This document shows positions 31 through 17,090 of a stretch of 64,000 nucleotides of DNA, piece by piece. The notes beneath the pieces are model-generated. The model did not search any database. It was given only the letters and a program-made list of their open reading frames with translations, and was not told the origin of the DNA. Position numbers and translations under genes: made by a program. The stretch comes from Roseitalea sp. (lineage in GTDB: Bacteria; Pseudomonadota; Alphaproteobacteria; Rhizobiales; Rhizobiaceae): assembly GCA_017642895.1 (NCBI GenBank), contig JAEPON010000002.1, forward strand, positions 62,001-126,000. The letters are read 5' to 3'. Each line of letters starts with the position of its first letter. Position 1 is the stretch's first letter.

Positions 31-807
31 TCAGATCAGGACCATGCCGCCATCGACCATCACGGTCTGGCCGGTGATGTAGTCGCTGGCGGGCGAAGCG
101 AGGAAGGAGGTCACGCCGACAATGTCGTCCGGTGTCGAGTAGCGGCCCAGCAGGATGTTTTCCGAGAAGCCGTCGATCGCCTCGTCGGGCTTTTCGGTCA
201 CGCCTCGCTCGATGAACTCGCGGTCGAGCTGTTCCCACAGTTCGGTGCGGACAACGCCGGGACCGAAACAGTTGACGGTGATCTTGTGTTCGGCGAGCGC
301 CCGAGCCGCCGCCTGCGTCAGGGCCGCAACCGCAAACTTCGACGCACAATAGTGTGCAAAGAGGGGATAGCCCTGCTTGGCGGCGATCGAGGCGGTGTTG
401 ATGATCTTGCCGCCGGTGCACTGGGCGATCATCTGCCGGGCCGCTTCCTGCGTGCCGATCAGAACGCCGCGTCCGTTGACCGCCATGATCCGGTCGAAGT
501 CCTCGTCGGTCACGTCCATGAAAGGGCAGGTCTGGCTGATGCCGGCATTGTTGAAAATAACATCGAGCCCGCCGAAGGCGTCGACCGTGGCGTCGATCAT
601 CGCCCGGGTGCTGGCGCGATCGGACACATCGACGGTGCAGGCGGCGGCGTTTTCGATGCCACCGGCCACTTTCTCGGCGGCGTCGGCGTTCAGATCGGCG
701 ACCATGACCCGTGCGCCACGCCGGGACAGATCACGCGCGATTTGTGCTCCGATCCCGCGCCCCGCGCCGGTGACGATCACGCGCCTGCCTTTGAGTTCTT
801 CGGCCAT
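31..807 (-). CDS. SDR family NAD-dependent polyol/sugar dehydrogenase
   Basis: Classical short-chain dehydrogenase of 258 residues. The cofactor motif TGAGRGIG is at residues 13-20, Asp39 after the second strand suggests NAD over NADP, NNAG is at 86-89, and the catalytic set Ser140, Tyr153, Lys157 is complete. The start has a strong site (AAGGAGGAG) a few bases upstream. It lies 10 bases after the stop of the ABC permease gene and is the downstream gene of the sugar importer operon, so it most likely oxidises the imported sugar or polyol. It resembles sorbitol/galactitol or 2,3-butanediol dehydrogenases; the exact substrate cannot be read from sequence. Confidence 0.9.
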   Translation of the reverse strand: MAEELKGRRVIVTGAGRGIGAQIARDLSRRGARVMVADLNADAAEKVAGGIENAAACTVDVSDRASTRAMIDATVDAFGGLDVIFNNAGISQTCPFMDVTDEDFDRIMAVNGRGVLIGTQEAARQMIAQCTGGKIINTASIAAKQGYPLFAHYCASKFAVAALTQAAARALAEHKITVNCFGPGVVRTELWEQLDREFIERGVTEKPDEAIDGFSENILLGRYSTPDDIVGVTSFLASPASDYITGQTVMVDGGMVLI

Positions 808-817
808 CGGCTCCTCC

Positions 818-1777
818 TTACGATTTGGACTTCTTGATGTAGAAGGCTGCGGCCAGAACGATGACCGCGCCCTTGATGATGATCTGGAACTGGACCGGGG
901 CGCCGATCAGCAGCACCAGGTTGAAGATCGCGATCAGGATCGCTGCCCCGACAACGGCGCCCGCGATGCCGCCCCGACCGCCGGACAGCGCCACGCCGCC
1001 GATCACCGCCGCGACAATCGAATCCAATTCGAAGCCGCGCCCGACGAAATTGTCGACGACGCCGGCAAACCCGGCCAGAATAAGCCCCGCCGTCGCGGCC
1101 AGTGTCGATGAGATCACATAGGCGATGATGATCACCCGGTCCGAGGACAGGCCAACCAGCCGCCCGGCGATCGGGTTGCCGCCGACGATGTAGAGCGCGC
1201 GGCCATAGGCGCTGCGGTGCAAGACGACCCAGAAGACGACGGCAATGACGAGGAAGATCACAAGCGAGATCGGCACGCCGCCCAGATTTCCTGCCCCGAT
1301 TTGCTTGAAGAGCGGCGGGATGTTGCCGGACGGCGCCCCCGATGTCATCCAGAAGCGGATGCCCTGCAACATGATCGCGGTGGCCAGCGTCGCAAGGAAC
1401 GGCGAGACGTTGCGCTTGGTGACGAGCAAGCCGTTGACGAGCCCCGTTCCCAGTGCCATGGCCAGGGCGCTTGCGACGATCAGCGGCGCCGAGGAATTAT
1501 CGGACGTATAAAGGCTCGTCATCACCGCGGCGGTCGCCATCACCGAGGCGACGCTCAGGTCGAGCCCGCGGCTGATGATCACGAATGCCTGGCCGATCAC
1601 GACAATGCCCAGCGGTGCAAGCTGCACCAGCATGTTGTTGATGTTGCCCGAACTGACGAAACTGGGCGAGATCAGCCCGCCGCCGGCGATCAGCAACGCC
1701 AGGAACAGAAAAATGCCGTAGCGGGCGAAGAATTCGCCGCCGAAAGCGGGCGCGCCGGTTTGCGTGGCTCCACTCAT
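818..1777 (-). CDS. Ribose-type sugar ABC transporter permease
   Basis: Inner-membrane subunit of the RbsC family (319 residues) with about eight to ten hydrophobic segments and the family's C-terminal glycine-rich stretch (GGRGGIAGAVVGAAI). It forms the channel with the second permease encoded just upstream; its ATG overlaps that gene's stop by four bases (ATGA). Two different RbsC-type permeases in one operon suggest a heterodimeric pore. The overlap implies translational coupling. Confidence 0.93.
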   Translation of the reverse strand: MSGATQTGAPAFGGEFFARYGIFLFLALLIAGGGLISPSFVSSGNINNMLVQLAPLGIVVIGQAFVIISRGLDLSVASVMATAAVMTSLYTSDNSSAPLIVASALAMALGTGLVNGLLVTKRNVSPFLATLATAIMLQGIRFWMTSGAPSGNIPPLFKQIGAGNLGGVPISLVIFLVIAVVFWVVLHRSAYGRALYIVGGNPIAGRLVGLSSDRVIIIAYVISSTLAATAGLILAGFAGVVDNFVGRGFELDSIVAAVIGGVALSGGRGGIAGAVVGAAILIAIFNLVLLIGAPVQFQIIIKGAVIVLAAAFYIKKSKS

Positions 1778-2748
1778 GCCAGACCCCGCTTTCTTTCGAT
1801 ATAGATCGAAACGGCGGCGATGATGATCAGACCCTGCACGACCAGTTGCAGGTGGGTCGATACCTGAAGGAAGTTGAGCAGATTGTTGAGCAGCGACACC
1901 AGAAGCACACCGAACAGCGTGCCGATGACACCGCCGCGACCGCCCGTCAGCATCGTGCCGCCGACGACGACGGGCGTGATCGAGGCGAGCGTATAATTCT
2001 GACCCTGATAGGGATCACCGATGCCAAACCGGATCGACAGGTAAAGGCCCGCCAAACCCGCAAAGAAGCCCGACATGGCGTAAACGAAGATCAACACTTT
2101 TCGCTGGCTGATCCCCATCAGGCGTGCCGCCTCCGGGTCGTCGCCATAGGCATAGACATCGCGCCCGATCGTCGTGTAGCGCAGCATCAGCGCGACGAGG
2201 ATGAACAGCAACACCGTGATGGTCGCGCCGATCGGCAGGCCCAGAAACCTGTCATAGGCGATCCATTCCAGTTCGAACGGCATCGCGCCGGTCGGCGTCA
2301 GGCTGTAGAGCAGCACGACCCCCTGCATGACGGTTCCGGTGCCCAGCGTGACGATCAGCGGGTGCACGCCAAGCCAATGGATCAGCAGGCCGTTGCCGCC
2401 GCCAATCGCCGCTGCCAAAACAAGGACTGCCGGGATCACCCACGCCGCGCGCGCAAGATCGCCGTCGATCAATCCCGACGCCAGGGTCGAGATCAGGCTC
2501 ATCATCGAGCCGACCGAAAGATCGATCCCCGCCGTCAGCACCGTCAGCGTCTGGCCGAGGCTGACCAGGCCAAGGCCGGCCGATTGCTCGAACACATTGG
2601 TCAGGTTCGACACGGTGGCAAACCGGTCGTTCAGGCCGGCGCCGACCAGGACCAGAAGGATCAGCAGCGCGATGACCGCCAGCAGCGCACCGTTGGACGA
2701 CAGGGCGCGACGCAGATCGGACCGGCCAGGCAGGGCGGGGTTCGACAT
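1774..2748 (-). CDS. Ribose-type sugar ABC transporter permease (second subunit)
   Basis: RbsC-family permease of 324 residues with multiple transmembrane segments and a GGTMLTGGRGGVIGT loop near the C-terminus. I start it at the ATG whose four bases overlap the ATPase stop codon; a GTG one codon earlier is also possible. It partners the permease at 818-1777 and the ATPase at 2748-4247 in a CUT2-type importer. Confidence 0.93.
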   Translation of the reverse strand: MSNPALPGRSDLRRALSSNGALLAVIALLILLVLVGAGLNDRFATVSNLTNVFEQSAGLGLVSLGQTLTVLTAGIDLSVGSMMSLISTLASGLIDGDLARAAWVIPAVLVLAAAIGGGNGLLIHWLGVHPLIVTLGTGTVMQGVVLLYSLTPTGAMPFELEWIAYDRFLGLPIGATITVLLFILVALMLRYTTIGRDVYAYGDDPEAARLMGISQRKVLIFVYAMSGFFAGLAGLYLSIRFGIGDPYQGQNYTLASITPVVVGGTMLTGGRGGVIGTLFGVLLVSLLNNLLNFLQVSTHLQLVVQGLIIIAAVSIYIERKRGLA

Positions 2749-4247
2749 CACGCAGCCTCCCTGTCGGTCTGCGCAGCCAGGTGCATGATGTTTTCCTCGG
2801 TGATATCCGGCCCTTCGAGCAGGCCGCTCAGCCGGCCCTCGCGCATCACCGCGACACGGTCCGACATGCCCACCACTTCCTGCAATTCCGAAGAGATCAT
2901 CAGGATGCCAATGCCCTCATTGGCCAGGTTCCGCATGATCTTGTAGATTTCCGCCTTGGCGCCGACATCGACGCCTCGGGTCGGTTCGTCGAGCACCAGC
3001 GCGGCATGGCATGCGCGCGTCCACCGCCCGAAAATGATCTTCTGCTGGTTGCCGCCGGACAGTTTGTCGACGTCGCCGAGCGGCCCGCGGCACCGGATGG
3101 CAAAATTGTCGATCTCGGTCTTGGCCGCCTTGATCTCCTGGCGCCCCGAGATCATCCAGCCCGAGACGAACTCGCCCAGCGACGCGCCGGTCACATTACG
3201 GGCGACATCGAGATTCATGAACAGCCCCTGCCCCTTGCGGTCCTCGGTGACGTAGCCGACGCCGGCCTTGATCATTGCGCCGGGAGAGACCGGATCGACC
3301 TTTTGGCCGTGAACGAAGACCTCGCCGCCGTCATGGTCAAGGACGCCGAATGCGGCATGGGCCAGCTCCGTCCGTCCAGCGCCGATCAGGCCGGCGAGCC
3401 CGAGGATCTCACCGGGCTGAACGGACAAGGTGACGTTCCGGACGCGGTCGGGCACGGAAATGTTGCGCAGATGCAGGACCGGCGGCACAGCCATATCGAC
3501 CGCCTCGGCGTTGGGCGGGAAGTAGTTTTCGATCTCGCGGCCGACCATGAGCGAAACCAGCTCGTCATGATCGGTCTCGCCGATCGGCCGGGTGGCGACA
3601 TGCTGGCCGTCCTTGAGCACGGTGACGCGGTCGCACAGTTCGAAGATCTCGTCGAGCCTGTGGGAAATGTAGATGACGCCGACGCCTTCGGCCCGCAGCG
3701 TGCGGACGAGATCGAACAGCAGTTCGACCTCCGGTTCCGACAGAACCGCCGTGGGCTCGTCCAGAATGAGCAGCTTGACATCATGGATCAGCGCCTTTGC
3801 GATCTCGACCATTTGCTGGTCGGCGACCGAAAGCACTCCGGCGCGCTCATCGACATCGATCCGAACGCCAAGGCGCGCAATCACCTCTTGGGCGGCCCTG
3901 CGGGTCGCGCGATGGTCGATCAGGCCGAACGCCGTCTTCTTTTCATAACCCTTGAAGATATTCTCGGCCACGCTGAGATGCGGGAACAGCACAAATTCCT
4001 GATAGATGATGTGGATGCCCGCCGCCTTGGCCGCCGCCGGATCGTTCCATCTGCGCGCGGTGCCGTCATAGGTGATGGTCCCGCCATCGGGCGTGTAGGC
4101 ACCGCCGATGATCTTGGTCAGCGTGGACTTGCCGGCGCCGTTTTCGCCGACAAGCGCATGGACCTCGCCGGCGCGCACCTCGAAGTCCACATTGCTGAGC
4201 GCCTTGACGCCTGGAAACGACTTTTCAATGCCGGTGAGCGCGAGCAT
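2748..4247 (-). CDS. Sugar ABC transporter ATP-binding protein (RbsA/MglA type, two ABC modules)
   Basis: A 499-residue tandem ATPase, the usual length for CUT2 systems. The N-terminal module has Walker A (GENGAGKST, near residue 36) and Walker B (LLILDEPTAVL). The C-terminal module has the degenerate Walker A typical of the family (GLIGAGRTEL), the signature LSGGNQQK and Walker B (LVLDEPTRGVD). It energises uptake through the two downstream permeases. A hairpin sits between this gene and the upstream binding-protein gene, a usual way to give more binding protein than ATPase. Confidence 0.95.
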   Translation of the reverse strand: MLALTGIEKSFPGVKALSNVDFEVRAGEVHALVGENGAGKSTLTKIIGGAYTPDGGTITYDGTARRWNDPAAAKAAGIHIIYQEFVLFPHLSVAENIFKGYEKKTAFGLIDHRATRRAAQEVIARLGVRIDVDERAGVLSVADQQMVEIAKALIHDVKLLILDEPTAVLSEPEVELLFDLVRTLRAEGVGVIYISHRLDEIFELCDRVTVLKDGQHVATRPIGETDHDELVSLMVGREIENYFPPNAEAVDMAVPPVLHLRNISVPDRVRNVTLSVQPGEILGLAGLIGAGRTELAHAAFGVLDHDGGEVFVHGQKVDPVSPGAMIKAGVGYVTEDRKGQGLFMNLDVARNVTGASLGEFVSGWMISGRQEIKAAKTEIDNFAIRCRGPLGDVDKLSGGNQQKIIFGRWTRACHAALVLDEPTRGVDVGAKAEIYKIMRNLANEGIGILMISSELQEVVGMSDRVAVMREGRLSGLLEGPDITEENIMHLAAQTDREAA

Positions 4248-4261
4248 CGCATTGTCCCGTC

Positions 4262-4293
4262 AAAAAAGCCGGGGAGCGCGTCGCGCGCTCCCC
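4262..4293 (-). terminator. Hairpin with T-run between binding protein and ATPase genes
   Basis: A perfect 10-bp stem (GGGGAGCGCG / CGCGCTCCCC, 4271-4280 and 4284-4293) with a 3-base loop is followed on the minus strand by GGC and six T residues. It has the form of a Rho-independent terminator. Because it lies inside an operon, just after the binding-protein gene, it probably acts as a partial terminator or 3'-end stabiliser that raises expression of the binding protein relative to the rest. Confidence 0.7.
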
Positions 4294-4308
4294 GCAGTGC
4301 TGGGAGGA

Positions 4309-5439
4309 TCAGTTCGGGTAATCGACCGAGTAGGTGGTCGGGTCATAGTCCGGACCCATGCCGCCGGTGATCAGAAGGTCGGCAGCACCATCGGCAACGA
4401 CCATGTCGCGTACCCACAGGTCGGCCTTGACCGACGCGGTCTCGTCGCCTTCGGTGACCGCGATCTGCGCGTTGATCTCATAGATGCACGGCACCGGGTT
4501 GCCCTGAAGCACGTCGAGCGCGACTCCCAGGCTCACTCCGCCCATGGCCGGCGGGTAACCGACTTCCAGCATCGGAATGCCATGCTCCAGCGCAAGCTGC
4601 AGCCCGCCATTGACGTCGGAATTGGTGTGGATCGGAATGTCATCGGAGGCATAGCCCGCTTCCAGGAACGCTTCGATCGAGCCGGGCGTCTGCAAACCGT
4701 GCGCGGACCAGACCGCGTCAATGTCCTCGCCATATTTGGCGATCATGGCCTGCATGACCTGCTTGCCCTTCACCGGCGACCAGTCCGAATAGACGGTTTC
4801 CAGCACATTGATGCCGGGATATTGCGCGAACACCTGGCGCGCCGGACCTTCGCGGTTCTCCGACGGGCTGGAGCCGGCCTGGCCGGCGAGCATGATGACA
4901 TTGCCTTCACCGTCGAGCTTCTCGACGATCCATTGAGCGAACATCCGCCCCATCATCGCATCGGATGCGGTCACGAAGGTCACGAAATTGTCCGAGGCGA
5001 TGCGGCGATCGACCATGACGACCGGAATTCCGCGCCGCATCACGCGGCTGATCGCCGGATCGAGAGCCTGCTGCGTGTTGGCCGACACGAGAAGCAAATC
5101 GATGTCCTGCGACACCAGATCCTGAATGTCGGCGACCTGCTTGGCATCGTCATGGCCGGCATCGGTGATGATCAGGCGTTCGATCTGGTCGGCGTTTTCG
5201 GCCGCGGCGCGCATGACGGAGTGCTGCATGACAACGCGCCAGCTATCGCCCAGCCCGGCGTTCGAAAAGCCGATCGTGTAAGGGCCTTCCTTGGCAAATT
5301 CCGCCGTCTCCTTGAAGCAAACCTCAATGTCCGGGTTCCAAAGATAGGTGCGCGGAACGCCTTCATATCCCTGGGCAAAGGCCGTGCTGCTGGCAAGCGT
5401 TGCGAAAGCGACGCCCAATGCGAACGTTCTGGCTGACAT
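4309..5439 (-). CDS. Sugar ABC transporter substrate-binding protein
   Basis: Periplasmic binding protein of the RbsB / type-1 fold, 376 residues. A cleavable signal peptide ends near the AFAQG junction (residues 18-22). The start MSARTF was chosen because GGAGG lies 8 bases upstream; a longer reading frame to 5592 would bury the signal peptide. The body has the expected GSSPSENREG ligand loop and ends with acidic repeats. It is the first gene of the minus-strand sugar operon, transcribed divergently from the dehydrogenase at 5638. The ligand is unknown, probably a pentose or polyol. Confidence 0.92.
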   Translation of the reverse strand: MSARTFALGVAFATLASSTAFAQGYEGVPRTYLWNPDIEVCFKETAEFAKEGPYTIGFSNAGLGDSWRVVMQHSVMRAAAENADQIERLIITDAGHDDAKQVADIQDLVSQDIDLLLVSANTQQALDPAISRVMRRGIPVVMVDRRIASDNFVTFVTASDAMMGRMFAQWIVEKLDGEGNVIMLAGQAGSSPSENREGPARQVFAQYPGINVLETVYSDWSPVKGKQVMQAMIAKYGEDIDAVWSAHGLQTPGSIEAFLEAGYASDDIPIHTNSDVNGGLQLALEHGIPMLEVGYPPAMGGVSLGVALDVLQGNPVPCIYEINAQIAVTEGDETASVKADLWVRDMVVADGAADLLITGGMGPDYDPTTYSVDYPN

Positions 5440-5550
5440 GGAAAACTCCTCCCGTTTAATCCGATGCTGCCGGCGGTCTTTCGAGCCCCATGGCCGATGG
5501 GCCGGCACCGGTCGGACGATAACAAACCCGATCTGGAAGAATGTGATATA

Positions 5551-5572
5551 ATTTATCCAAAATGGATTAATC
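5551..5572. promoter_or_regulatory. Palindromic operator candidate in the divergent promoter
   Basis: The sequence TTATCCAAAATGGATTAA contains inverted half-sites (TTATCCA / TGGATTA, six of seven pairing) around an AT centre in an otherwise GC-rich region. It sits between the divergent starts of the sugar-binding-protein gene (5439, minus) and the dehydrogenase (5638, plus), about 65 bases from the latter. Position and symmetry suggest a regulator site controlling both transcripts. The HTH/solute-binding fusion at 6601 is the only regulator in this cluster and is the natural candidate. Confidence 0.55.
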
Positions 5573-5637
5573 ACCGACCCATGATCCTTCATACGCTCGT
5601 AAGATCGGCAGCACGTCCACCGTCAGGAGAAGCGCCG

Positions 5638-6570
5638 ATGACAACGCAATCGAGAACGCCAAGCGAGGCGCGCGCAGGACCGGTCGGCTGGATCGGCGTT
5701 GGCAAGATGGGCGCGCCGATGGCCGGCAACCTGCTGAAATCGGGGATCGACGTCGTGGTGTCCGACACCGTGACCGCCAACGGCGACGCCATGAAAGCGC
5801 GGGGCGCGCGTATCGTCGAAAAACTTGCTTCGTTTGACGACTGCCAAACCGTTTTTTCCACGCTGCCCAACGACGCCGCGCTTTTGAGCGTCGTTCTTGG
5901 CGATGAACCGGAAGGCTCGGGCCTCGCCGATATCTTGGCGCCCGGATCGATCCTCGTGGAGATGAGCACTGTCTCGCCCCATTGTTCGTCGCAGATTGCC
6001 GATGCGCTGGCAGCAAGGGACATCGATTATCTGCGCGCACCCATATCGGGCAGCACCGCCCTCGCCGAAACGGCCAGCGTGACCATCCTGGCATCGGGCC
6101 GGCAGTCCGCTTGGGACGCGACGTTGCCATGGCTGCGAGTCATGTCCTCGCGCCAGTTCTATCTGGGCGGCGGAGATGAAGCACGGTTCATGAAGCTTGT
6201 CCTGAACACAATGGTCGGTGCGACCTCGTCGGTGCTCAGCGAGGCGCTTGTTCTGGGTGAAACGGGCGGACTCGACCGGCGCACCATGATGGAGGTGATC
6301 TGCGAAAGCGCGGTTGTCTCACCATTGATCAAGTACAAGGTCGATGCGATCGAGACCAATGACTTCGCACCGGCTTTCTCGGTGGCCCAGATGATCAAGG
6401 ACTTCTCCCTGATTACCGAAGCGGGCCAGAACAATGGCGTGCCGATGTTCAACGCCAATCTGATCCTTCAGCAATATATCGCCGCAGCAAATTCCGGTCT
6501 GGAGAAATCCGATTTCTTTGCATTGGTTCAATGGTTGAGAGACATGAGCCGTCCCGGCGCCTACAAATAG
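5638..6570 (+). CDS. NAD(P)-dependent beta-hydroxyacid dehydrogenase family protein
   Basis: A 310-residue member of the 6-phosphogluconate / 3-hydroxyisobutyrate dehydrogenase family. It has the N-terminal Rossmann signature GVGKMGAPMAGNL (residues 20-32), the substrate loop APISGST, and the catalytic-lysine segment FMKLVLNTMVG. The start at 5638 follows AGGAG at proper distance; an in-frame ATG at 5581 lies next to the palindrome and lacks a ribosome site. It is the first gene of the plus-strand arm divergent from the sugar importer, so it likely oxidises a sugar acid derived from the imported compound. The specific substrate is not determined. Confidence 0.88.
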   Translation: MTTQSRTPSEARAGPVGWIGVGKMGAPMAGNLLKSGIDVVVSDTVTANGDAMKARGARIVEKLASFDDCQTVFSTLPNDAALLSVVLGDEPEGSGLADILAPGSILVEMSTVSPHCSSQIADALAARDIDYLRAPISGSTALAETASVTILASGRQSAWDATLPWLRVMSSRQFYLGGGDEARFMKLVLNTMVGATSSVLSEALVLGETGGLDRRTMMEVICESAVVSPLIKYKVDAIETNDFAPAFSVAQMIKDFSLITEAGQNNGVPMFNANLILQQYIAAANSGLEKSDFFALVQWLRDMSRPGAYK

Positions 6571-6600: not shown

Positions 6601-8424
6601 ATGACGAAGGCACCGAAAACCAAGAGTTCGCCGGCTGACCTGAACGGAAAAACACAGGCCCGCCCCGGCGAGGCCGGCAAGGACATCGGCAAGCTCACCG
6701 AACATGAACTGTCCCGGATCGTCACCTTTCTCAAGGCGATGCGCGCGCCGTTCGACGACATCGTGCCCGGCGCCCGTCACGATGCCTACTGGAACATCGT
6801 TCTGGAACTCGCCGCCAGCTATGTTTCACAACGCCCGCTCGATCAGTCCTCCCTGATCGCCGCATCGGGCGCCAGCTACGGGACCGGAAACCGTATCGTT
6901 TCGCGCATGATCGGCGACGGCCTGATCCGCAAGGTCCCACGCGGACCGCGCCACAAGACGGCCTTTCTGGAACCCAGCGACGAATTGCTGGACGAGTTCG
7001 TGCGCTATGCGGTCGAAGTCAAATCCCTGCTGGCGCGAACCTTCGGTCTGCGTTCGGGAGGAGAGACCGAGGAATATTATTTTGGCGGCTCCTATTTTGC
7101 TTCCCACATCATCGCGCCGCTCAGCGGCGGCGATATCGATGTCGATGCGCTGCGCAACATCCGCTTTCTTTTGAACGACGACAATTACTTCGCGTCGATG
7201 CGCGACATGTGGTCCGATTTCCGGACCGATTTCGGGCGCCGGAGCAGCTTCGACCTTCGCCGGCTGCCCGAACTTTACGATCAGGCACAGGCCGCCTTCC
7301 ACCAGCCCGATGCCGGCTATGATGTCGTCGCGATCAACATGCCCTGGCTCGGACGGTTCGCGTCCGAAGGCTTGCTGGCCGACCTGGGCGAAGTGCTGGA
7401 AGGCGCGGCCATCAACCCGCTGGATTTCCATCCCTCGGTTTGGGGCACCGGCCGGTGGAATGGCCGCCAGTACGGCATACCGATCTATTGCACGATCGAG
7501 ATTTTGACCGCACGGCGCGACCTGTTCGAGGATGCGGGCCTGCGGTTTCCCGCCACCTGCGAACAGCTTCTCGATGCGGCCGATGTCCTGCATCGTCCGG
7601 ACCAGGGGCAATATGGGATTGTCTGGAACGGCGCGCGCGGCATGCCGATCGCCCATTCCTTCATGTTCATGCTCGCTTCGCACGGCTCATCGGTCATCGA
7701 CATTCCGCGGCGCGGCGAGAACTGGACCGATACGTTCGATGCCGCCAACCTCGTCCTCAACATCAATTCCGAGGCGGGGCTCGAGGTCGTCGATTACATG
7801 CAAAGGCTCGTGGCCTGTTCGCCGCCCGACATCGCCGAAATCGACTGGAACCAGCGGATCGACTATTTCATCTCCGGCCGTGCAGCGATGGCCTATTGCT
7901 GGACCATGCGCGCCGCCCGCTTCGAGCATGAGCTGGCTTCCAAGGTGAAGCGCAAGGTGGAATATTTGCCGCCTCCGGCGCGCAGCGAGCGAGCGTCCAC
8001 AGCGCCCGTCGGTGGCTTTCTTCTGACCATTCCGGCCACACACACGCTTGAGCGGCAAAAGCAGATCATCGACGCGATCGCCTGGATGGCGTCGCCCGAA
8101 GCGATGAAGGCGCATGTGAAAAACGGCTTCCCCGTGGCACCGCGTTTTTCGGTCTGCGCCGACCCCGAAGCGCTGTCCTCGTCGCCGATCGTGCGCTTTG
8201 TCGATCGCCTCGCCCGCCACCAGAAACTCAACACCTGGTCGCGCCCGCCAGTGCCCGGCTACATGGAGATCGAGCGCGTTCTGGGCGAAGAGATCCATGA
8301 TGCGGTGTTCCACGGCAAAAAGCCGCGCACTGCGCTTGCCGATGCCGAGGCGCGGATCCTTGGCGGCATTCACGGATCGGCCAGCCACACTCAGCGTGAG
8401 ACGAGCAATCGCCGCCGCGCCTGA
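6601..8424 (+). CDS. Winged-helix regulator fused to a solute-binding-protein domain
   Basis: A 607-residue protein with an unusual layout. Residues about 60-125 form a MarR-like winged helix (two helices around LIAASGASYGTGNRIVSRM, then a basic wing with RGPRHK). From about residue 185 to 595 it reads as a family-1 (MalE-like) extracellular solute-binding protein, with YDVVAINMPWLGRFASEGL, the core RNGxxYGIP-type segment (QYGIPIYCTIE) and RRDLFEDAGL. There is no signal peptide or membrane segment, so it should be cytoplasmic. I infer a transcription factor that uses the binding-protein fold as ligand sensor. It lies 30 bases after the dehydrogenase gene and 70 before an SDR gene. Confidence 0.8.
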   Translation: MTKAPKTKSSPADLNGKTQARPGEAGKDIGKLTEHELSRIVTFLKAMRAPFDDIVPGARHDAYWNIVLELAASYVSQRPLDQSSLIAASGASYGTGNRIVSRMIGDGLIRKVPRGPRHKTAFLEPSDELLDEFVRYAVEVKSLLARTFGLRSGGETEEYYFGGSYFASHIIAPLSGGDIDVDALRNIRFLLNDDNYFASMRDMWSDFRTDFGRRSSFDLRRLPELYDQAQAAFHQPDAGYDVVAINMPWLGRFASEGLLADLGEVLEGAAINPLDFHPSVWGTGRWNGRQYGIPIYCTIEILTARRDLFEDAGLRFPATCEQLLDAADVLHRPDQGQYGIVWNGARGMPIAHSFMFMLASHGSSVIDIPRRGENWTDTFDAANLVLNINSEAGLEVVDYMQRLVACSPPDIAEIDWNQRIDYFISGRAAMAYCWTMRAARFEHELASKVKRKVEYLPPPARSERASTAPVGGFLLTIPATHTLERQKQIIDAIAWMASPEAMKAHVKNGFPVAPRFSVCADPEALSSSPIVRFVDRLARHQKLNTWSRPPVPGYMEIERVLGEEIHDAVFHGKKPRTALADAEARILGGIHGSASHTQRETSNRRRA

Positions 8425-8494: not shown

Positions 8495-9271
8495 TTGCAA
8501 CACATCGACAACCCATTTTCGCTTGCAGGCAAAGTCGCCATCGTCACCGGCGCCTCACGCGGCATCGGCGCCGCCATCAGCCGGCAACTGGGCGAATTGG
8601 GCGCCCACGTGGTCATGGCCGACCTGCTTGACGAGGTGGAGGCAACAGCGAAAAGGCTGTCGTCGGACGGCCTGTCGGCAGAGGCTCAACGGATCGATGT
8701 GACATCGACGGCATCGGTCAACGACCTTGCGCAGCGCATCTCTCAAAAGCATGGCCGCGTTGACATCGCAATTGCCAATGCGGGCATTTCCTATGAGGCC
8801 GAAACGGCGATGCACTCCGACGAGGAATGGAGCCGGGTCATGGCGGTCAACCTTGACGGTGTGTTCAGAACGGTTCGCGCCATCGGCAATATCATGCTCG
8901 AACAGGGCGGCGGTTCGATCGTGGCAATCTCATCGATCGCCGGCGTCAAGGCCGTGCGCCCGGAACTGCATGCGGGCTATGACGTCGCCAAGGCCGGGGT
9001 TGCGCATCTGTGCAGGGTCGTCGGCGTCGAGTGGGCCAAACGGAATGTGCGCGTCAATGCCGTCGGACCCGGCTACACCAACACGCCCATGCTGCAACAG
9101 GTCGGTATCGAGCGGCCGGAGGTCATGGCTCGCTGGATCGATGACATCCCGATGGGGCGGCTGCTTGAACCCGCCGAGGTCGCCGCCGCCGTTGCGTTTC
9201 TGGCGTCCGATGCGGCCAGCGGGATTACGGGACACGTGCTGATGGCCGACGCCGGTTATTCGGCGGCCTGA
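8495..9271 (+). CDS. SDR family oxidoreductase
   Basis: Short-chain dehydrogenase of 258 residues: TGASRGIG at 18-25, ANAG near 94-97, Ser147/148, and the pair Tyr162, Lys166. Asp43 after the second strand suggests NAD. The start is a TTG placed 8 bases after AGGAGG; no in-frame ATG lies near. It ends the plus-strand arm of the sugar cluster and converges with the deacetylase gene, whose stop is 10 bases away. Probably a second sugar or polyol dehydrogenase of the same pathway. Confidence 0.88.
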   Translation: MQHIDNPFSLAGKVAIVTGASRGIGAAISRQLGELGAHVVMADLLDEVEATAKRLSSDGLSAEAQRIDVTSTASVNDLAQRISQKHGRVDIAIANAGISYEAETAMHSDEEWSRVMAVNLDGVFRTVRAIGNIMLEQGGGSIVAISSIAGVKAVRPELHAGYDVAKAGVAHLCRVVGVEWAKRNVRVNAVGPGYTNTPMLQQVGIERPEVMARWIDDIPMGRLLEPAEVAAAVAFLASDAASGITGHVLMADAGYSAA

Positions 9272-9281
9272 AAGGCGCGCA

Positions 9282-10310
9282 TCAGCCGCCGAACCCTTCG
9301 AGCACATTGATGGTGTTGATGCCGACCTCCTCGACCGCATAGCCGCCTTCCATCAGAAACAGCGTCGGCAGGTTGAGCGCGGCGATGTCGGCGCCCATCG
9401 TCGAAAAGTCCTTTGATGTCAGCTTGAAGAAGCTGATCGGGTCCTTCTCGAACGTATCGACGCCAAGCGAGATGATGACGAGGCCCGGATCAAAGGATGC
9501 GATGCGCTCCATGGCCTTGCCGAGCGCTGCGCGCCAGACGTCGAACCCGGTCCCCGGCGCCATCGGCAGGTTCAGGTTGAAGCCCGCGCCCGCGCCACTG
9601 CCCGTCTCGTCGGCAAAGCCGAGAAAATGCGGAAACGCCTGATCCGGATCACCATGCAGCGAAACGAACAGCACATCGTCGCGATCGTAGAAGATCTCCT
9701 GCGTGCCGTTGCCATGGTGAAAATCGACATCGAGGATCGCGACCCGTTCGATCCCCTTGTCACGCGCATGCTGGGTGGCAACCGCCGCATTGTTGATGAA
9801 GCAATAGCCGCCATACTGGTCGGTCGCCGCATGGTGGCCCGGCGGCCGGCAAAGGCCAAACGCGGTACGCTCGCCGCCCATCACAATATCCGCCGCCGTC
9901 AGCGCCACATCCTTGGAGGCCAGCGCCGCCTCCCATGTGCCGTCCGAGATCGAGGTTTCCGACGCCAGGCAGTAATAGCCAAGCTGAGCCTCGAAATGGG
10001 CCGGGATGCGGTCCGAACGCATGGTGCGCGCCGGCCAGACCGTCACGATCGCTTCGCCTTCATAGCCGAGCGCGCTCCAGTTGGCCCAGGCATTTTCAAG
10101 GAATGCCGCATAGCCCGGATCGTGCACGGCAAGCACCGGCTCCATGCCGTGCGCGCGCGGCGGCACGACGGTGCCGAAACCGCGCTTTTCCGCTTCGCCA
10201 ACAATGAAGTCGATCCGCTCGGGGCACTCGAACGGCGGCACCAACTGCCCGCCATAAAGTTCGGTCCTGGCACTGCGTTTGCGATGCTCTTCCGTATAGA
10301 CGATCTTCAT
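9282..10310 (-). CDS. aphA: Acetylpolyamine amidohydrolase (class II HDAC-fold deacetylase)
   Basis: A 342-residue zinc amidohydrolase closely following the acetylpolyamine amidohydrolase pattern from its start (EEHRKRSARTELYGG, LVPPFECPER). It has RPPGHHA with the paired active-site histidines, the metal motif DVDFHHGNGTQEIFYD, the second metal Asp in SLGVDTFEKDP, and the GGYA tyrosine. The 'GYYCLASETSISDGTWEAA' stretch matches the insertion that shapes the narrow tunnel of the dimer in this family. Expected reaction: removal of acetyl groups from N-acetylated polyamines or similar small amides in the cytoplasm. It overlaps the LivM-type permease stop by four bases and is the last gene of the LIV operon. 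Confidence 0.88.
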   Translation of the reverse strand: MKIVYTEEHRKRSARTELYGGQLVPPFECPERIDFIVGEAEKRGFGTVVPPRAHGMEPVLAVHDPGYAAFLENAWANWSALGYEGEAIVTVWPARTMRSDRIPAHFEAQLGYYCLASETSISDGTWEAALASKDVALTAADIVMGGERTAFGLCRPPGHHAATDQYGGYCFINNAAVATQHARDKGIERVAILDVDFHHGNGTQEIFYDRDDVLFVSLHGDPDQAFPHFLGFADETGSGAGAGFNLNLPMAPGTGFDVWRAALGKAMERIASFDPGLVIISLGVDTFEKDPISFFKLTSKDFSTMGADIAALNLPTLFLMEGGYAVEEVGINTINVLEGFGG

Positions 10311-11338
10311 CGATGGGTGTCCGTTGCGGTGGTTGATCGGTTTTGGCTTGTCGGCCTGAAGACGAAGGCGCGCAGCCGCTCGACCCCGCCGGCTATCCCC
10401 TTGGGCAGGAAGACGACGAACAGCACGATCGAAAGGCCGAGAATGATCGAGCGGGCATCGCCCAGTTCCTTGGCGAGTTCGACCACGATCATCATCACGC
10501 CGGCGCCGATCAGCGGCCCCCAGGTCGAGCCCAGCCCGCCGACGATCACCATGGCGAGCACGAACATCAGCGTCGAGAATTCGAACAGGGAGGGACCGGC
10601 GAAGCGGAAATGGCCGGCATAGACCGCACCCGCAAGGCCGGTCAGCAGCGCCGAACTGGCGAATGCGATCAACTGGTAGCGCTGCCGGTCGATGCCGCGG
10701 CTTGACGCATAGCCGACATTGTCGCGGATGGCGCGGAACGCCAGACCCAGCCGCCCGTGAATGATGACGACGAGCGCGACAAGGTTCAGCACGAAGACGG
10801 CCCAAACGACGTAATAGTGGCCGACGATCCAGTCGCCGCGCAGGATCGGCCGGAACCCGAAATCGGCAAAGCGCGAAAAGCCGGTCGATCCGCCGAACAA
10901 TTGCTGGCAATTGTTCTGGATCAGCGTGAAACAGTGCGTGTCGGTGACGATCAGGATGCGCGCCATCTCGGCGATGGCAAAGGTCAAGAGCGCGACATAG
11001 GCGCCCGTCAGCCGCAGGCAGGCCAGGCCGATCAGAAGCGCCAGCACGATAGCGGCCAGTGCGGCCAACGGGATCGCCAGCCAGATCGACAGGCCCGCCA
11101 GTTGCGTGCCCATCGCCACGCCATAGGCGCCGCAGGCAAAGAACAGCAGTTGCGCCAGCGAGAAGACGCCCGCATGGCCCATCAGCAAGTTCCAGTTCAT
11201 CGCCACCATCGCCCAGATGAAGAAGATGATGACCTCGCCCAGAAGGTAGCGTTCGCCGACGAACAGCGGCACGGCGGCAAAGCCGACGGCAATGACAAGC
11301 GCGATCGCCAGATGCTTGTTGAGTTCTCCCGCAAGCAT
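10307..11338 (-). CDS. Branched-chain amino acid-type ABC transporter permease (LivM family)
   Basis: A 343-residue inner-membrane protein with about nine hydrophobic segments. It carries the LivM hallmark region (GLAFRAIRDNVGYASSRGID) and GGLGSTWGPLIGAGV. It starts at an ATG that shares one base with the stop of the LivH-type gene (TGATG), and its own stop overlaps the deacetylase start. It pairs with the permease at 11338-12216. A longer open frame through this region is formed only by reading out of the real gene. Confidence 0.92.
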   Translation of the reverse strand: MLAGELNKHLAIALVIAVGFAAVPLFVGERYLLGEVIIFFIWAMVAMNWNLLMGHAGVFSLAQLLFFACGAYGVAMGTQLAGLSIWLAIPLAALAAIVLALLIGLACLRLTGAYVALLTFAIAEMARILIVTDTHCFTLIQNNCQQLFGGSTGFSRFADFGFRPILRGDWIVGHYYVVWAVFVLNLVALVVIIHGRLGLAFRAIRDNVGYASSRGIDRQRYQLIAFASSALLTGLAGAVYAGHFRFAGPSLFEFSTLMFVLAMVIVGGLGSTWGPLIGAGVMMIVVELAKELGDARSIILGLSIVLFVVFLPKGIAGGVERLRAFVFRPTSQNRSTTATDTHR

Positions 11339-12216
11339 CACAGCCGCACCACCTTTTCGGTGCCGAACAGGCCCTGCGGACGCCAGATGAGGATGGCGAT
11401 CACCAGAACCAGCATGACGGGAAAGCCGAACCGCACGCCGACATAATATTGGATTGCCGCTTCCAGCAGCCCGAGCGCGAACGCGCTGACACCGGCGCCC
11501 CACGCATTGCCGAGCCCTGCCACCACACAGATCACGAACGCCTTGAGCAGCGGATCGCCGCCCATCGACGGCGATAGCGTCGACAGGGACGAGATCATCA
11601 CGCCCGCGACACCGGCCAGCGCGCCGGCCAACGCCATCACCTGCAGATAGACGCTGTTGGTGCGCACGCCCATCAATTGCGCCGCCTCGCGATTGATCGC
11701 CGTTGCGCGAATGGCCATGCCGAAACGGGTTTTCAGAAGCAGCCAGGCAACCGCGCCGATCAAGACCATCGCGACCGCGATGATCAAAAGCGACTGGCGC
11801 GCCACCGCAACATCGAACAGACGCACCACGCCCTCGATCCGCACCGGCTGCGGATAGGGATAGCCACCGAACAGTTTCAGGACAAAGTCCTGCAACAGGA
11901 TGGCAAGGCCGGCCGTTGCGACGATGACATTGGTCTCGAATGCCTTGGAGCGCAGCATGAAGCGCACCATCACAAGGTGCGTGGCAACGCCCATCGCCGC
12001 GCCCGCCGCCATCGCCGCAAGAACCGCGACCACGAGTGGCAGCCCGAACTGCTCGGCGGCGGCATAGGCAGCATAGGCGCCGATCGTCATGAACAGGCCG
12101 TGCGCCATGTTGAACATGCCCAGCGTGCCGAAGATCAGCGACAGGCCGACCGCCGCGAGCGCATACATCGCGCCGAGCGTCATGCCGGTCACGAGGATCT
12201 GGATGACGATATCCAT
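11338..12216 (-). CDS. Branched-chain amino acid-type ABC transporter permease (LivH family)
   Basis: A 292-residue permease with the LivH pattern GAMYALAAVGLSLIFGTLGMFNMAHG near the N-terminus (split over the first two helices) and the coupling segment around FGMAIRATAINREAAQLMGV. I start it at the ATG two bases past the LivF stop; a TTG two codons earlier overlaps that stop. It forms the heterodimeric channel with LivM. Confidence 0.92.
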   Translation of the reverse strand: MDIVIQILVTGMTLGAMYALAAVGLSLIFGTLGMFNMAHGLFMTIGAYAAYAAAEQFGLPLVVAVLAAMAAGAAMGVATHLVMVRFMLRSKAFETNVIVATAGLAILLQDFVLKLFGGYPYPQPVRIEGVVRLFDVAVARQSLLIIAVAMVLIGAVAWLLLKTRFGMAIRATAINREAAQLMGVRTNSVYLQVMALAGALAGVAGVMISSLSTLSPSMGGDPLLKAFVICVVAGLGNAWGAGVSAFALGLLEAAIQYYVGVRFGFPVMLVLVIAILIWRPQGLFGTEKVVRL

Positions 12217-12218
12217 GC

Positions 12219-12932
12219 TCAATGCCCGCCCAGATAGGTTTCAAGAATGTCGCGCGATCCGGCCACTTCGGCAGCCGTTCCCGACCATTCGATCCGGCCC
12301 GCATCCATCAGGCAGATGCGGTCGGCGATGCCGATCAGGCGGCTGGGATTTTCCTCGACCACAAGGAAAGCGCGGTCGGCGCGCGACAGACCACGCAGCC
12401 CTTCATAGATCTGCTCGATGATCAGCGGCGCAAGGCCGAGCGAGGGCTCGTCGATCATCATCACCTTGCCGCCGGCCATCAGGCCGCGCCCGATGCCGAC
12501 CATGCGCCGTTCGCCGCCCGACAGGCTGCTGGCCGACTGGCCGCGCCGCTCGGCAAGGCGCGGAAAGAACGCATAGACCTCCTCCAGCGCGCGCGGGACC
12601 TCCGCGCCGTCGCGCAGATAAGCGCCCATGTGCAAATTCTCCTCGACGCTCATCTCGCCGAAAAGCTGGTCGCCTTGCGGCACGTGCACGAGGCCCGCCT
12701 CGACCCGCTCATGAACCTCCGCCGTCTCGATCGCCTGGCCGAAGATGCGGATGGCGCCCGACCGGGCGGGCACCAGTCCGGAAACGGTTTTCAGCAATGT
12801 CGTCTTGCCGTGCCCGTTCGGCCCGATCAGGGCGGCCATGGTGCCCGGTTCGGTGTCGAGCGACACGCCGTGCAGCACCGGCCGGTTGTGATAGCCCGCC
12901 ACCAGATCGCTGATCGAAAGCGCGGCCATCAT
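12219..12932 (-). CDS. LIV-type ABC transporter ATP-binding protein (LivF family)
   Basis: A 237-residue ATPase with Walker A GPNGHGKTT (about residue 36), signature LSGGERRMVGIGRGL, and Walker B VMMIDEPSLGLAP, the last being the LivF form. The start is an ATG overlapping the LivG stop by four bases. It works as a pair with the LivG subunit encoded upstream. Confidence 0.94.
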   Translation of the reverse strand: MMAALSISDLVAGYHNRPVLHGVSLDTEPGTMAALIGPNGHGKTTLLKTVSGLVPARSGAIRIFGQAIETAEVHERVEAGLVHVPQGDQLFGEMSVEENLHMGAYLRDGAEVPRALEEVYAFFPRLAERRGQSASSLSGGERRMVGIGRGLMAGGKVMMIDEPSLGLAPLIIEQIYEGLRGLSRADRAFLVVEENPSRLIGIADRICLMDAGRIEWSGTAAEVAGSRDILETYLGGH

Positions 12933-13714
12933 GCCGTCTCCGCCAGCCCGGCGAGTTCGGTCGTGCCCAGATAGACCTCGCGGACAGTCCGGTCCGCCGA
13001 AAGCCCGGCGGGTGTGCCGTCATAGATGATCCTGCCCTGATGCATGATCAGCGCCCGGTCGGCGACGCTCGTCAGGAACCGCATGACGTGCTCGATGAAC
13101 ACAAGCGTCACGCCCTCGGCCTTCAACCCCAGCACCATTGCGATGAAATCGTCGATCTCCGGCGGCGTCAGCCCGCCCACCGGTTCGTCCAGCAGCAGAA
13201 GGTCGGGCTCGTTGACCAAAGCGGTCGCCACCATCAGCTTCTTGCGCGCCAGAACCGGCACATTCTCCACCAGATCGTCGGCCATGTCGGTCAGGCCGAA
13301 CTTTTCGAGCATGGCGCGTGCGGTGGCCCGGTCATCGCGCGCGGTCAGAAGCCAGCCGCCCGCCGAGCGCCGCCCGAAGGCGACCGCGGCCAGCACATTG
13401 TCCATGACGCTCAGCCCGTCAAAGCCGGAATTGAGCTGGAAGGTGCGCGCCATGCCCATCTGGCAGATGCGGTGCGGAGGCGTGCCGGCCAAGGGCTGTC
13501 CGCGCAAAGCGACGCTGCCCTCGCTCATCGTGTTCAGGCCGGAAATCAGGTCGAAGAAAGTCGTCTTGCCGGCGCCGTTCGGCCCGCCAATGCCTATGGT
13601 CTCGCCGCGCCGGACATCGAAATCGACGCCATCGACGGCGACCAGGGCGCCGAAGCGCCTGGTCACGCCCCTGCATGACAGAAGGGGCGGTCCGTCGGAC
13701 GATGCCTCCGGCAA
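12929..13714 (-). CDS. LIV-type ABC transporter ATP-binding protein (LivG family)
   Basis: An ATPase of about 261 residues with Walker A GPNGAGKTT, Walker B LLLLDEPVGGLTP and a LivG-type long insert after the Q-loop region. No ATG lies at the expected position. I place the start at the TTG at 13714, 6 bases after the binding-protein stop and downstream of AGGG; a CTG at 13723 is an alternative. The signature motif appears as VPVLARKKLMVATAL, in which the canonical LSxGxxR is degenerate, as in some LivG relatives that keep a partner with a good signature. Confidence 0.88.
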   Translation of the reverse strand: MPEASSDGPPLLSCRGVTRRFGALVAVDGVDFDVRRGETIGIGGPNGAGKTTFFDLISGLNTMSEGSVALRGQPLAGTPPHRICQMGMARTFQLNSGFDGLSVMDNVLAAVAFGRRSAGGWLLTARDDRATARAMLEKFGLTDMADDLVENVPVLARKKLMVATALVNEPDLLLLDEPVGGLTPPEIDDFIAMVLGLKAEGVTLVFIEHVMRFLTSVADRALIMHQGRIIYDGTPAGLSADRTVREVYLGTTELAGLAETA

Positions 13715-13719
13715 CGAGG

Positions 13720-15045
13720 TCAGCCCTGCATCCAGGAAGGCAGTTTGAAGCTCGCCACATTGTAGGGCGGCGGCGCCACCAGCACCCCGTCGGATGCCAC
13801 ATCCTGGATCTGGCTGAAGATGTGCGGCATCCCCAATGACGGATCGTTGGTCTCGCTGGGATAGCAATAGGCCGACTGGGTTTCGGGAACGATCCGCATC
13901 GTGCCCACCGGACCGCGATAGATCAGATTGCGCAACCGGTCGGCGACCAGCCGGTTCTGATCCTCCTCATAGGGCGCACCCGGCCCGCCGGCGAGGGCTG
14001 CGGCAACCGCATAGGCATGCATCGCCAGATAGGTCTGGCCGCCGCCATTGGGCGAGGCATTGTCGCCGAACCTGGCCTTGTAGGCCTCGGAGAACGCCGT
14101 GCCGATCTCGTCCTGCAACGCGCCGATCACCGTCGCATAGAGAACACCCTCGGAATTCTGACCGGCAATTTCACGGAACGCGGCGAGCGAAGCGCCATAC
14201 TGCATGTAAACCAGGCTGTTGGTCGGCTCGTTCATGAACTGGTTCATGAACTGCGCCTGGTCCTGGGCATAAAAGTGCGTGACCGCGATCAGCGCCGGCG
14301 GATCGGCGCGCAGCTTGGCCAGCGTCGGGCCCCATTCGGAGATCGGCACGTTGACCGTTTCGAACAGTGACACCTCGAAACCGTACTCGGCCGCCTTCTC
14401 GTTCAGTTCGTTGGCGATGTTGATCGAATAGACACCCGGGCCGGTGACGATCGCCAGCTTGTTGTTGGGCCGTGCGAACTCGCCGCGCTCTTCAAGCCCC
14501 TTGACGAAATCCAGAAGGCCGACGCCGTAGAAGGTTTCGGGCGGATCGTACTGGAACGTGCCCCAGAAGCGGTCGGGGTCGGATTTGACCAGTTCGTCGT
14601 GAACCACGACAGTGTTGGCATGCATGGCGATGACGCCGGCATCGGCGGCCACATCGTGCAATGCCGTGCCGGTTTCCAGATTGTAGCCGGTGATCAGCGC
14701 GCTCGCGCCGTCGCGGTCGATCAGCCGCTGTGCCGCCTGGATGACGGCATCGTCGCCCTTGCTTTCGGTATCGACGAACACGGCTTCGACCGTACGGCCC
14801 AGAATGCCGCCCATCGCGTTGATCTCCTCGATGGCCATCTCAAGTCCGCGCCGGAACTCGATGCCGTCGGCGGCGACGATGCCGGTCAGCGGCGCTGGAC
14901 ACCCGATGATCACCGGTTCGCCCCCATGGGCCGCCGCCGTTCCGTTCAACCCGGCCAACAGCGCCGCCGAACCGGTGGTCGCGCCCGCAAGGCGCAGAAA
15001 ATCACGCCGCGATGTGGGCGCCGTCCTGGTTTTGTCGTCGTTCAT
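13720..15045 (-). CDS. Tat-exported LIV-type ABC substrate-binding protein
   Basis: A 441-residue periplasmic binding protein of the LivJ / amide-binding type. The N-terminus is a twin-arginine signal (SRRDFLRLAG at residues 12-21, then a hydrophobic stretch to about residue 38), so it is probably exported folded. The mature part starts GEPVIIGCPAPLTGI, typical for the family. AGGAGG precedes the start. It lies between the HDAH-like deacetylase gene and the LivG gene in one operon. The ligand is unknown; the two deacetylases suggest an acylated amine or amide. Confidence 0.9.
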   Translation of the reverse strand: MNDDKTRTAPTSRRDFLRLAGATTGSAALLAGLNGTAAAHGGEPVIIGCPAPLTGIVAADGIEFRRGLEMAIEEINAMGGILGRTVEAVFVDTESKGDDAVIQAAQRLIDRDGASALITGYNLETGTALHDVAADAGVIAMHANTVVVHDELVKSDPDRFWGTFQYDPPETFYGVGLLDFVKGLEERGEFARPNNKLAIVTGPGVYSINIANELNEKAAEYGFEVSLFETVNVPISEWGPTLAKLRADPPALIAVTHFYAQDQAQFMNQFMNEPTNSLVYMQYGASLAAFREIAGQNSEGVLYATVIGALQDEIGTAFSEAYKARFGDNASPNGGGQTYLAMHAYAVAAALAGGPGAPYEEDQNRLVADRLRNLIYRGPVGTMRIVPETQSAYCYPSETNDPSLGMPHIFSQIQDVASDGVLVAPPPYNVASFKLPSWMQG

Positions 15046-16176: not shown

Positions 16177-16215
16177 GTAGCCTCCCTTGATCATCCGACT
16201 GTGCCGGACCTGCCA

Positions 16216-16299: not shown

Positions 16300-17076
16300 A
16301 TGAAACACGACACATATGACCTTCTGGGCCGGATCGCCGTGGCCACAAAACTCGCCGAGGCCGAGCCGCATCTGGTGGCCCTGTCGATCCATGAGTTTTC
16401 GCCGCAAAGCGCCCTTGCCATCGTCTATCGCGAAGGCCGCCGGCCGGAGATCGGCTTTCGCTGGATCCCCGATGCGCATCTGCGCAAGACGTTCGACACC
16501 TATTATCGCGAAGTCGGGCACCTGCTCGATCCGTTCGCCCAGCGCGCCCGGAGCGAACAGGGCACTTCTGCGTTCCGGCTGGCCGAGATCGCGCCGGACC
16601 GGTTCGAGGCAAGCGACTATTTCGCCAACTATTTCCAGTCGACCGGCATGGTCGACGAACTGGGCGCGCTGCGCCGGCTCACGCCGCGCTCGGTCGTCCA
16701 TTTCTCGATCGGCCGGAACGCCGGCTATCCCAAGTTCACGGCGCGGGAGGTGCGCCGCTTCAAGCAGCTTCACGCCGCCTTCATGCCCAAGCTGGCCGAA
16801 TTGATGCTGGCCGAACAGGCCGATGGCGATGACGCACAGCGCACGCCCGACCTTGTCGAGATCTTCTCCCGGCTGCGCACCGGTGACGGCCAGGCGCTGA
16901 GCCACCGCGAAGCGCAGGTCGCCGCGCTGATCACACAAGGCCATTCGAGCCGTTCGATCGCCTTCAACCTCGAAATCTCGGTACACACGGTCAAGGTGCA
17001 CCGCCGCAACCTTTACCGGAAGCTGGCGATCTCGGCGCAGAACGAACTGTTCGGCCTGATCATCGACGCGCTTTAG
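16300..17076 (+). CDS. LuxR family transcriptional regulator
   Basis: A 258-residue protein whose last 65 residues are a LuxR/GerE helix-turn-helix (LSHREAQVAALITQGHSSRSIAF, then VHTVKVHRRNLYRKL, in two parts). The N-terminal ~170 residues form an uncharacterised sensor region; I do not see a clear acyl-homoserine-lactone pocket or a receiver domain. The ATG at 16300 follows GGGAGG by 6 bases. It is divergent from the deacetylase/LIV operon and probably controls it. No luxI-type synthase is in the window. Confidence 0.87.
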   Translation: MKHDTYDLLGRIAVATKLAEAEPHLVALSIHEFSPQSALAIVYREGRRPEIGFRWIPDAHLRKTFDTYYREVGHLLDPFAQRARSEQGTSAFRLAEIAPDRFEASDYFANYFQSTGMVDELGALRRLTPRSVVHFSIGRNAGYPKFTAREVRRFKQLHAAFMPKLAELMLAEQADGDDAQRTPDLVEIFSRLRTGDGQALSHREAQVAALITQGHSSRSIAFNLEISVHTVKVHRRNLYRKLAISAQNELFGLIIDAL

Positions 17077-17090
17077 GGGTGCCCGGCCGT

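Follow-up and report, generated by a model that had tools for sequence, protein, structure and literature searches.

We found that the gene at 6601-8424 of the window (the whole 64,000-nt stretch of Roseitalea sp. DNA that was analyzed) joins a predicted MarR-type winged helix to a complete MalE-like family-1 solute-binding domain, and that this combination is a natural regulator family, mostly misannotated as "extracellular solute-binding protein." A conserved operator-like site accompanies the family. We proposed that the protein is likely a cytoplasmic one-component, ligand-responsive regulator, which would sit as a dimer on the palindrome at 5551-5571 and free two units, one of importer and catabolic genes and one of dehydrogenase, regulator, and short-chain dehydrogenase (SDR) genes (table 1).

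Table 1. Features of the regulator and its surroundings, in positions of the window
Feature	Positions	Strand	Basis
Regulator gene: winged helix + family-1 solute-binding domain, 607 aa	6601..8424	+	single open reading frame
MarR-type winged helix-turn-helix, residues ~31-150	6691..7050	+	fold and sequence profile
Linker, residues ~151-181, with conserved YYFGG motif; low model confidence	7051..7143	+	alignment, model
MalE-like family-1 solute-binding domain, residues ~182-596; presumed sensor	7144..8388	+	Pfam, PDB, fold
Presumed operator: palindrome ATTTATCCAAAATGGATTAAT, whose core TATCC-R-N3-Y-GGATA is conserved around family members	5551..5571		sequence
Divergent intergenic region with the palindrome, between start codons chosen at 5439 and 5638	5440..5637		starts picked from sequence
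NAD(P)-dependent dehydrogenase, 3-hydroxyisobutyrate dehydrogenase type, ending 30 bp before the regulator gene	5638..6570	+	Pfam
SDR, downstream of the regulator	8495..9271	+	Pfam
The importer's own binding protein, Peripla_BP_4, type I; N-terminus export-like by eye	4309..5439	-	Pfam
RbsA-type duplicated ATPase of the importer	2748..4247	-	family scan of cluster representative
Second RbsC-like permease	1774..2751	-	by eye
RbsC-type permease	818..1777	-	family scan of cluster representative
SDR; same-strand genes continue leftward beyond the window	31..807	-	family scans

The open reading frame call gave 607 codons in one frame, exactly from end to end of the gene. The whole protein was modeled with AlphaFold2 from an 84-sequence alignment, which comprised 78 of the 80 loci kept from the genome collection together with P0001 and P0006-P0010; L107, truncated at a contig end, and L050, whose frame was too long, were excluded. 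The mean pLDDT was 82.6, and because pTM was 0.72 and the linker was modeled with low confidence, the relative placement of the two domains was not used. The N-terminal part gave no match at E≤1 in the full-protein Pfam scan. Scanned in isolation at the same threshold, it matched only DIP2311-like_C and MarR_2, the latter with E 0.04 and 14.5 bits, below the curated cutoff of 27; matches to MarR_2 at E≤1 were obtained for 31 of 41 family members (the alignment thinned to <85% identity, with the kept row L111 left out), the best at 3.1e-6. Against solved chains, a profile of these 41 members ranked a MarR-family chain first (0.0039) and TubR second (0.0046). Folded alone from the same members, the domain was modeled at pLDDT 91.7 as a winged helix, with three helices, a recognition helix (residues ~93-105), a two-stranded wing (109-125), and a long helix. 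The best solved fold matches were mostly of MarR type, at a modest level (7kfq at 2.5e-4 by Foldseek; MepR-DNA 4lll by VIA, with Z 9.4 and rmsd 5.3 Å over 93 aligned residues), and since AspA and TubR, which are other winged helices, tied with them, "MarR-type" is a description and no proof of descent. R98 and P125 were invariant in all 84 aligned sequences, and K119 of the wing was found in 78 of them. We concluded that the N-terminal part is predicted to fold as a MarR-type winged helix; a sequence-only reading of this DNA had placed a MarR-like winged helix at residues ~60-125, and although the fold stood, the span proved wider, at ~31-150.

The C-terminal part is a complete MalE-like family-1 binding domain, as had been read from the sequence for some 400 residues. 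Pfam assigned SBP_bac_1 (E 1.6e-24, 87.9 bits with a cutoff of 26, residues 224-503) and SBP_bac_8 (E 5.3e-20) and, at E≤1 over the full protein, nothing beyond these two. In a sequence search of the PDB, 5iai_A matched residues 192-584 at 2e-34; residues 176-590 of the model were superposed on 5iai with Z 45.8 and rmsd 2.3 over 394 aligned residues, and Foldseek gave a TMt of 0.89. Aromatic residues were retained across the 84 sequences, with W249 in all of them and W286, W342, and W546 in 82 each.

The same reading had held that the protein lacks an export signal, and none was found: over the first 45 and the first 60 residues, the best 13-residue hydropathy mean was 0.46 and 0.78, respectively, compared with 1.5 or more in 17 and 20 of 23 stand-alone binding proteins, of which 6 and 3 remained below 1.5 with start codons as called. 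Sequence evidence thus supports the view that the regulator of this window would stay in the cytoplasm. Over the first 45 residues, the family median of the best hydropathy was 0.58, and 10 of the 84 members reached 1.5, which leaves location less certain for these relatives; they probably do so because the helices of the DNA-binding domain start right at their N-terminus. In the linker, each residue of the YYFGG motif (Y159, Y160, F161, G162, and G163; ~7075-7095) was present in at least 90% of the 84 sequences, and the motif was not placed by the model, with residues 161-170 at pLDDT below 50.

The distribution of the fusion was addressed in several genome samples. A scan of a genome collection gave 467 relatives, of which the best 80 were kept; in each of the 80, a single open reading frame, matched from query residue ≤36, led from the winged helix to the binding domain, and one locus was truncated at a contig end. 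Among 61 related genomes, the full fusion was found in 10, own genome included, and the nine others were 31-91% identical; at least four of these nine loci were also among the 80 (L011, L012, L013, and L014 correspond to L039, L077, L075, and L114). In the own genome, the other 12 matches started at query residue 146 or later, that is, they covered the binding domain only. Full-length members occurred in 8 of 385 genomes of an even sample of the class (E≤1e-40) and in 6 of 398 of an even sample of the phylum (E≤1e-30); both counts include the own genome, and the remaining matches in these two samples were stand-alone binding proteins. One full-length member (G563) lay outside the class, the joint was also seen in genomes of other families, and three full-length members were found in 1.4 Mb genomes. 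In 32 of 32 plasmid records, a single place accounted for 80% or more of the query. A tree was built from the binding domains of 33 fused and 24 stand-alone proteins; its root is not fixed, and several stand-alone rows form long branches. In this tree, the fused domains made up one group with support of 100/99 and were united in 100% of 200 bootstrap trees; thus, one fusion event suffices. The regulator was named as such in none of the 27 plasmid records that carry a name: 26 of the 32 read "extracellular solute-binding protein," 1 read "periplasmic component," and 5 were nameless. This naming would hide a transcription-factor family from regulon maps, and hundreds of genomes may carry such regulators (467 relatives in one scan, with the best 80 examined).

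Two arrangements within the family were observed in passing. The genome G729 has three family copies, two of which (L159 8949-10784, plus strand, and 16659-18416, minus strand) flank one ribose-type importer. In L151 and L152 (G397 and G090, ~1.4 Mb), a 561-residue regulator adjoins a ribose-type importer, with an operator-like TATTC variant.

A conserved operator-like site was observed with the regulator family. An operator palindrome at 5551-5572 had been suggested earlier; it lies in the divergent region and recurs in relatives, but its end is at 5571. We searched for the core TATCC-R-NNN-Y-GGATA near the operon starts of 81 loci (the 80 and the window), where "near" covers ~500 bp before and 210 bp after the called start, and expected values were derived from random windows of the same loci, not from shuffles. 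The core was found without mismatch in 19 loci (0.42 expected), with ≤1 mismatch in 46 (1.25 expected), and with ≤2 mismatches in 63 (4.66 expected); no site near the operon start was found at ≤2 mismatches in the other 18. Many of the 81 loci are closely related; among 13 representatives <65% identical, the core was present in 6 at ≤1 mismatch (0.23 expected) and in 9 at ≤2 (0.93 expected). These statistics are not blind, since the 15-mer was fixed after inverted repeats had been seen in the loci. Fifteen further starts yielded some site at ≤2 mismatches in 9 and none in 6, and several of the 9 were weak matches of TATTC type or lay at unfavorable positions, as in L159 (-478 and +95). In the own genome, the core at ≤1 mismatch was found in 9 places and was rarer than a reversed control (21), with no genome-wide enrichment that would outline a regulon; therefore, the core convinces only by its position. 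The 21-bp pattern occurred once in the window and in 0 of 100 shuffles, the pattern being drawn from that very site, and the palindrome was absent from the list of an exact-seed inverted-repeat finder. A scan of 5400-5680 for sigma-70-like promoters and terminators found nothing, so repression by promoter overlap is without sequence support. An earlier pattern with the wrong spacer, TATCCRNNYGGATA, was rejected, having been present in 7 of the 81 loci only.

Pairs of sites 21 bp apart were found in four of the six loci of a divergent clade, L113-L118, which includes Roseibium and Marivita among others. These tandem operator-like sites, two helical turns apart and upstream of the regulator, were seen in L113, L115, L116, and L117, and also in L154 and L158, hinting at two dimers side by side.

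We analyzed the gene neighborhoods of the 80 loci and the window over up to 10 kb per side, less on short contigs, counting family loci alone, without control loci, and naming each neighbor cluster from a family scan of one representative. Part of a ribose-type importer lay within the flank in 75 of 81 loci and none in the other 6 (L074, L078, L090, L101, L106, and L107, some of them on short contigs); permease counts are low estimates, because in L039, L112, and the window the gene caller reported a shadow open reading frame where a permease lies. As had been noted before, the binding protein of the adjacent importer has a different, type-I fold (Peripla_BP_4 vs. the MalE-like sensor). The dehydrogenase cluster of the gene at 5638-6570 immediately preceded the regulator, in the same orientation, in 56 of 81 loci, and in the window the two genes are probably cotranscribed. 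Other frequent neighbors were zinc alcohol dehydrogenase (60 loci), SDR (44), a second zinc dehydrogenase (41), Gfo/Idh/MocA (38), PRISE-like (37), and YciI (35); an intradiol dioxygenase or a maleylacetate-reductase-like iron alcohol dehydrogenase (Fe-ADH) was found in 28 loci, with both in 21. Annotated plasmids likewise show an intradiol dioxygenase and "maleylacetate reductase" beside members. The partners in the Roseibium clade were E1/E2-type 2-oxoacid dehydrogenase genes, an M24-family hydrolase, and an aldehyde dehydrogenase; some of them (the 2-oxoacid dehydrogenase set) also occur beside members L087, L088, L091, and L093 of the other clade, and since this set is in both clades, partners do not track clades strictly. 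A MalF/MalG-type importer adjoins two distant members. Probably the regulator was kept while the chemistry changed, and the ligand differs between branches.

The leftward genes, all on the minus strand, extend past the window edge in the order SDR, zinc dehydrogenase, PRISE-like, YciI, Gfo/Idh/MocA, zinc dehydrogenase, and intradiol dioxygenase. On this stretch (L119 9917-16422, minus strand, and window 31-5439, minus strand), a ribose-type importer, several NAD(P) dehydrogenases, and an intradiol ring-cleavage dioxygenase stand together. Past the dioxygenase, a LysR-type gene (L119 8982-9887, plus strand) is divergent from two CoA-transferase genes, a thiolase, and an Fe-ADH; the thiolase scores above the curated cutoff for 3-oxoadipyl-CoA thiolase, and the Fe-ADH is maleylacetate-reductase-like. 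Together with the CoA-transferases, thiolase, and Fe-ADH, the leftward genes may form a cyclitol-to-aromatic catabolic route.

We proposed that a dimer of MarR-type winged helices would bind the palindrome in the divergent promoter region and that the MalE-like domain would close around a small, polyhydroxylated molecule, likely the imported substrate (a polyol or cyclitol) or an early oxidation product. Such a ligand would be likely because import is of sugar type, the binding domain most resembles proteins that bind sugars and polyols, and several NAD(P) dehydrogenases in a row lie alongside. Closure would be relayed through the linker and alter DNA binding, and both putative units would be freed, with the importer and catabolic dehydrogenases leftward and the dehydrogenase, regulator, and SDR rightward; as the second gene of the rightward unit, the regulator would therefore be autoregulated. 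The regulator probably controls how a sugar-like compound, perhaps a cyclitol, is taken up and broken down. Tentatively, and with more doubt than belief, we envisage an undescribed route in which a cyclitol would be imported, oxidized, dehydrated to a trihydroxybenzene, and cleaved at the ring toward the beta-ketoadipate pathway; the captured MalE-like protein would sense the cyclitol inside the cell. Loss of three waters from an inositol would give the formula of a trihydroxybenzene, and an intradiol dioxygenase could open such a compound. No description of a cyclitol-to-hydroxyquinol operon was recognized in open-licence literature (titles and abstract starts). The association of a conserved operator-like site with unexplained gene sets, which combine sugar-type import with aromatic ring cleavage, makes the substrate testable.

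A protein of this same architecture may instead activate, the ligand-bound form recruiting RNA polymerase, which we regard as possible but the minority view. SgrR has been described as an activator of sgrS, and the divergent region here shows no strong promoter; however, palindromic MarR-type sites in divergent regions are more often repressor sites. Activation would also be in line with PMC13060122, in which SgrR, a helix-turn-helix (HTH) with a solute-binding protein, regulates sgrS transcription and represses itself. In our judgement, the regulator would nevertheless more probably act as a repressor than as an activator. A separate question is whether the ligand is a late intermediate or product, such as an aromatic or ring-cleavage compound, so that the domain would report flux and not substrate. 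The closest solved MarR winged helices include structures with aromatic acids, and an intradiol dioxygenase stands at the end of the leftward genes, but MarR proteins bind aromatics in their own pocket and not in a separate domain, and the binding domain lies nearest to sugar and polyol binders; we thus consider a late ligand improbable, and an imported substrate or early oxidation product is preferred.

More radical readings question the fusion itself. If the protein were a decayed or moonlighting solute-binding protein that had lost its signal peptide and whose N-terminal part does not bind DNA, the word "extracellular" in 26 of 32 plasmid records would be apt, but the winged helix is conserved (R98 and P125 in 84 of 84, K119 in 78 of 84) and modeled at pLDDT 91.7, and the family co-occurs with the conserved palindrome, which makes this reading very unlikely. 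The chance that an assembly or annotation error fused two genes is negligible: no point in its favor was found, and the joint, in one frame in 80 of 80 kept loci and 32 of 32 plasmid records, in other families, and in one other class, refutes it. The sequence-only reading had itself raised both the failure of the N-terminal part to fold as a DNA-binding domain and the joining of two genes in assembly; structure prediction and fold comparison gave a DNA-binding fold, and the joint proved conserved in many genomes.

The regulator was compared with known systems. MarR proteins have ~140 residues and no separate ligand domain; the regulator shares their winged helix fold, but it has 607 aa with a full binding domain. 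LacI combines a LacI HTH with a type-I fold, and in LacI/GalR regulators, too, an HTH is joined to a periplasmic-binding fold, which senses sugar; in contrast, this protein pairs a MarR-type winged helix with a type-II, MalE-like fold, and neither a LacI HTH nor a type-I periplasmic-binding sensor was found in it by Pfam at E≤1. Compared with MalE-like family-1 proteins, the regulator has the SBP_bac_1 profile and fold but no export signal, and the importer adjacent to this member is ribose-type, with no MalF/MalG-type permeases beside it. The closest solved structure to the sensor domain is Arad_9887 (PDB 5iai), whose ligand we take to be ribitol; Arad_9887 is without a DNA-binding domain, and although 5iai was outside the tree set, the treed stand-alone proteins all fell outside the regulator group. 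Other pairings of an HTH with SBP_bac_1 may occur in Gram-positive genomes.

The principle of an HTH with a solute-binding domain is already known from SgrR/DsvR, and a winged helix on a family-1 binding protein is another variant of it; the earlier judgement that this pairing is unusual was fair, with SgrR/DsvR as a precedent in principle that it did not name. SgrR/DsvR proteins are likewise one-component, with an N-terminal HTH and a C-terminal solute-binding domain (PMC13060122), but the SgrR type has SBP_bac_5 (PMC13060122) and SgrR_N, whereas this protein has a MarR-type winged helix and SBP_bac_1. By Pfam at E≤1, SBP_bac_5 was absent from the full protein and SgrR_N from the N-terminal part, and, unlike SgrR/DsvR, this protein sits with its own importer and catabolic genes. 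LysR-type regulators also join a winged helix to a type-II periplasmic-binding-like domain, which spans ~200 residues (PMC5882156), whereas here a full binding protein of ~415 residues is present; a LysR domain was absent from the Pfam scan of this protein. Synthetic chimeras, in which a periplasmic binding protein is linked to a DNA-binding domain as a biosensor, are laboratory constructs (PMC6079105), whereas this family is natural. The family would be the natural counterpart of that synthetic goal, and its linker may teach how the two parts are coupled. Among the titles and abstract starts of open-licence literature, no paper on a winged helix joined to a family-1 binding protein was recognized.

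Elsewhere in the window, two Hist_deacetyl genes (9282-10280 and 15061-16191, both on the minus strand) flank another ABC importer at 10307-15045, which is of branched-chain type by eye and has a Peripla_BP_6 binding protein; this importer perhaps serves acetylated polyamines.
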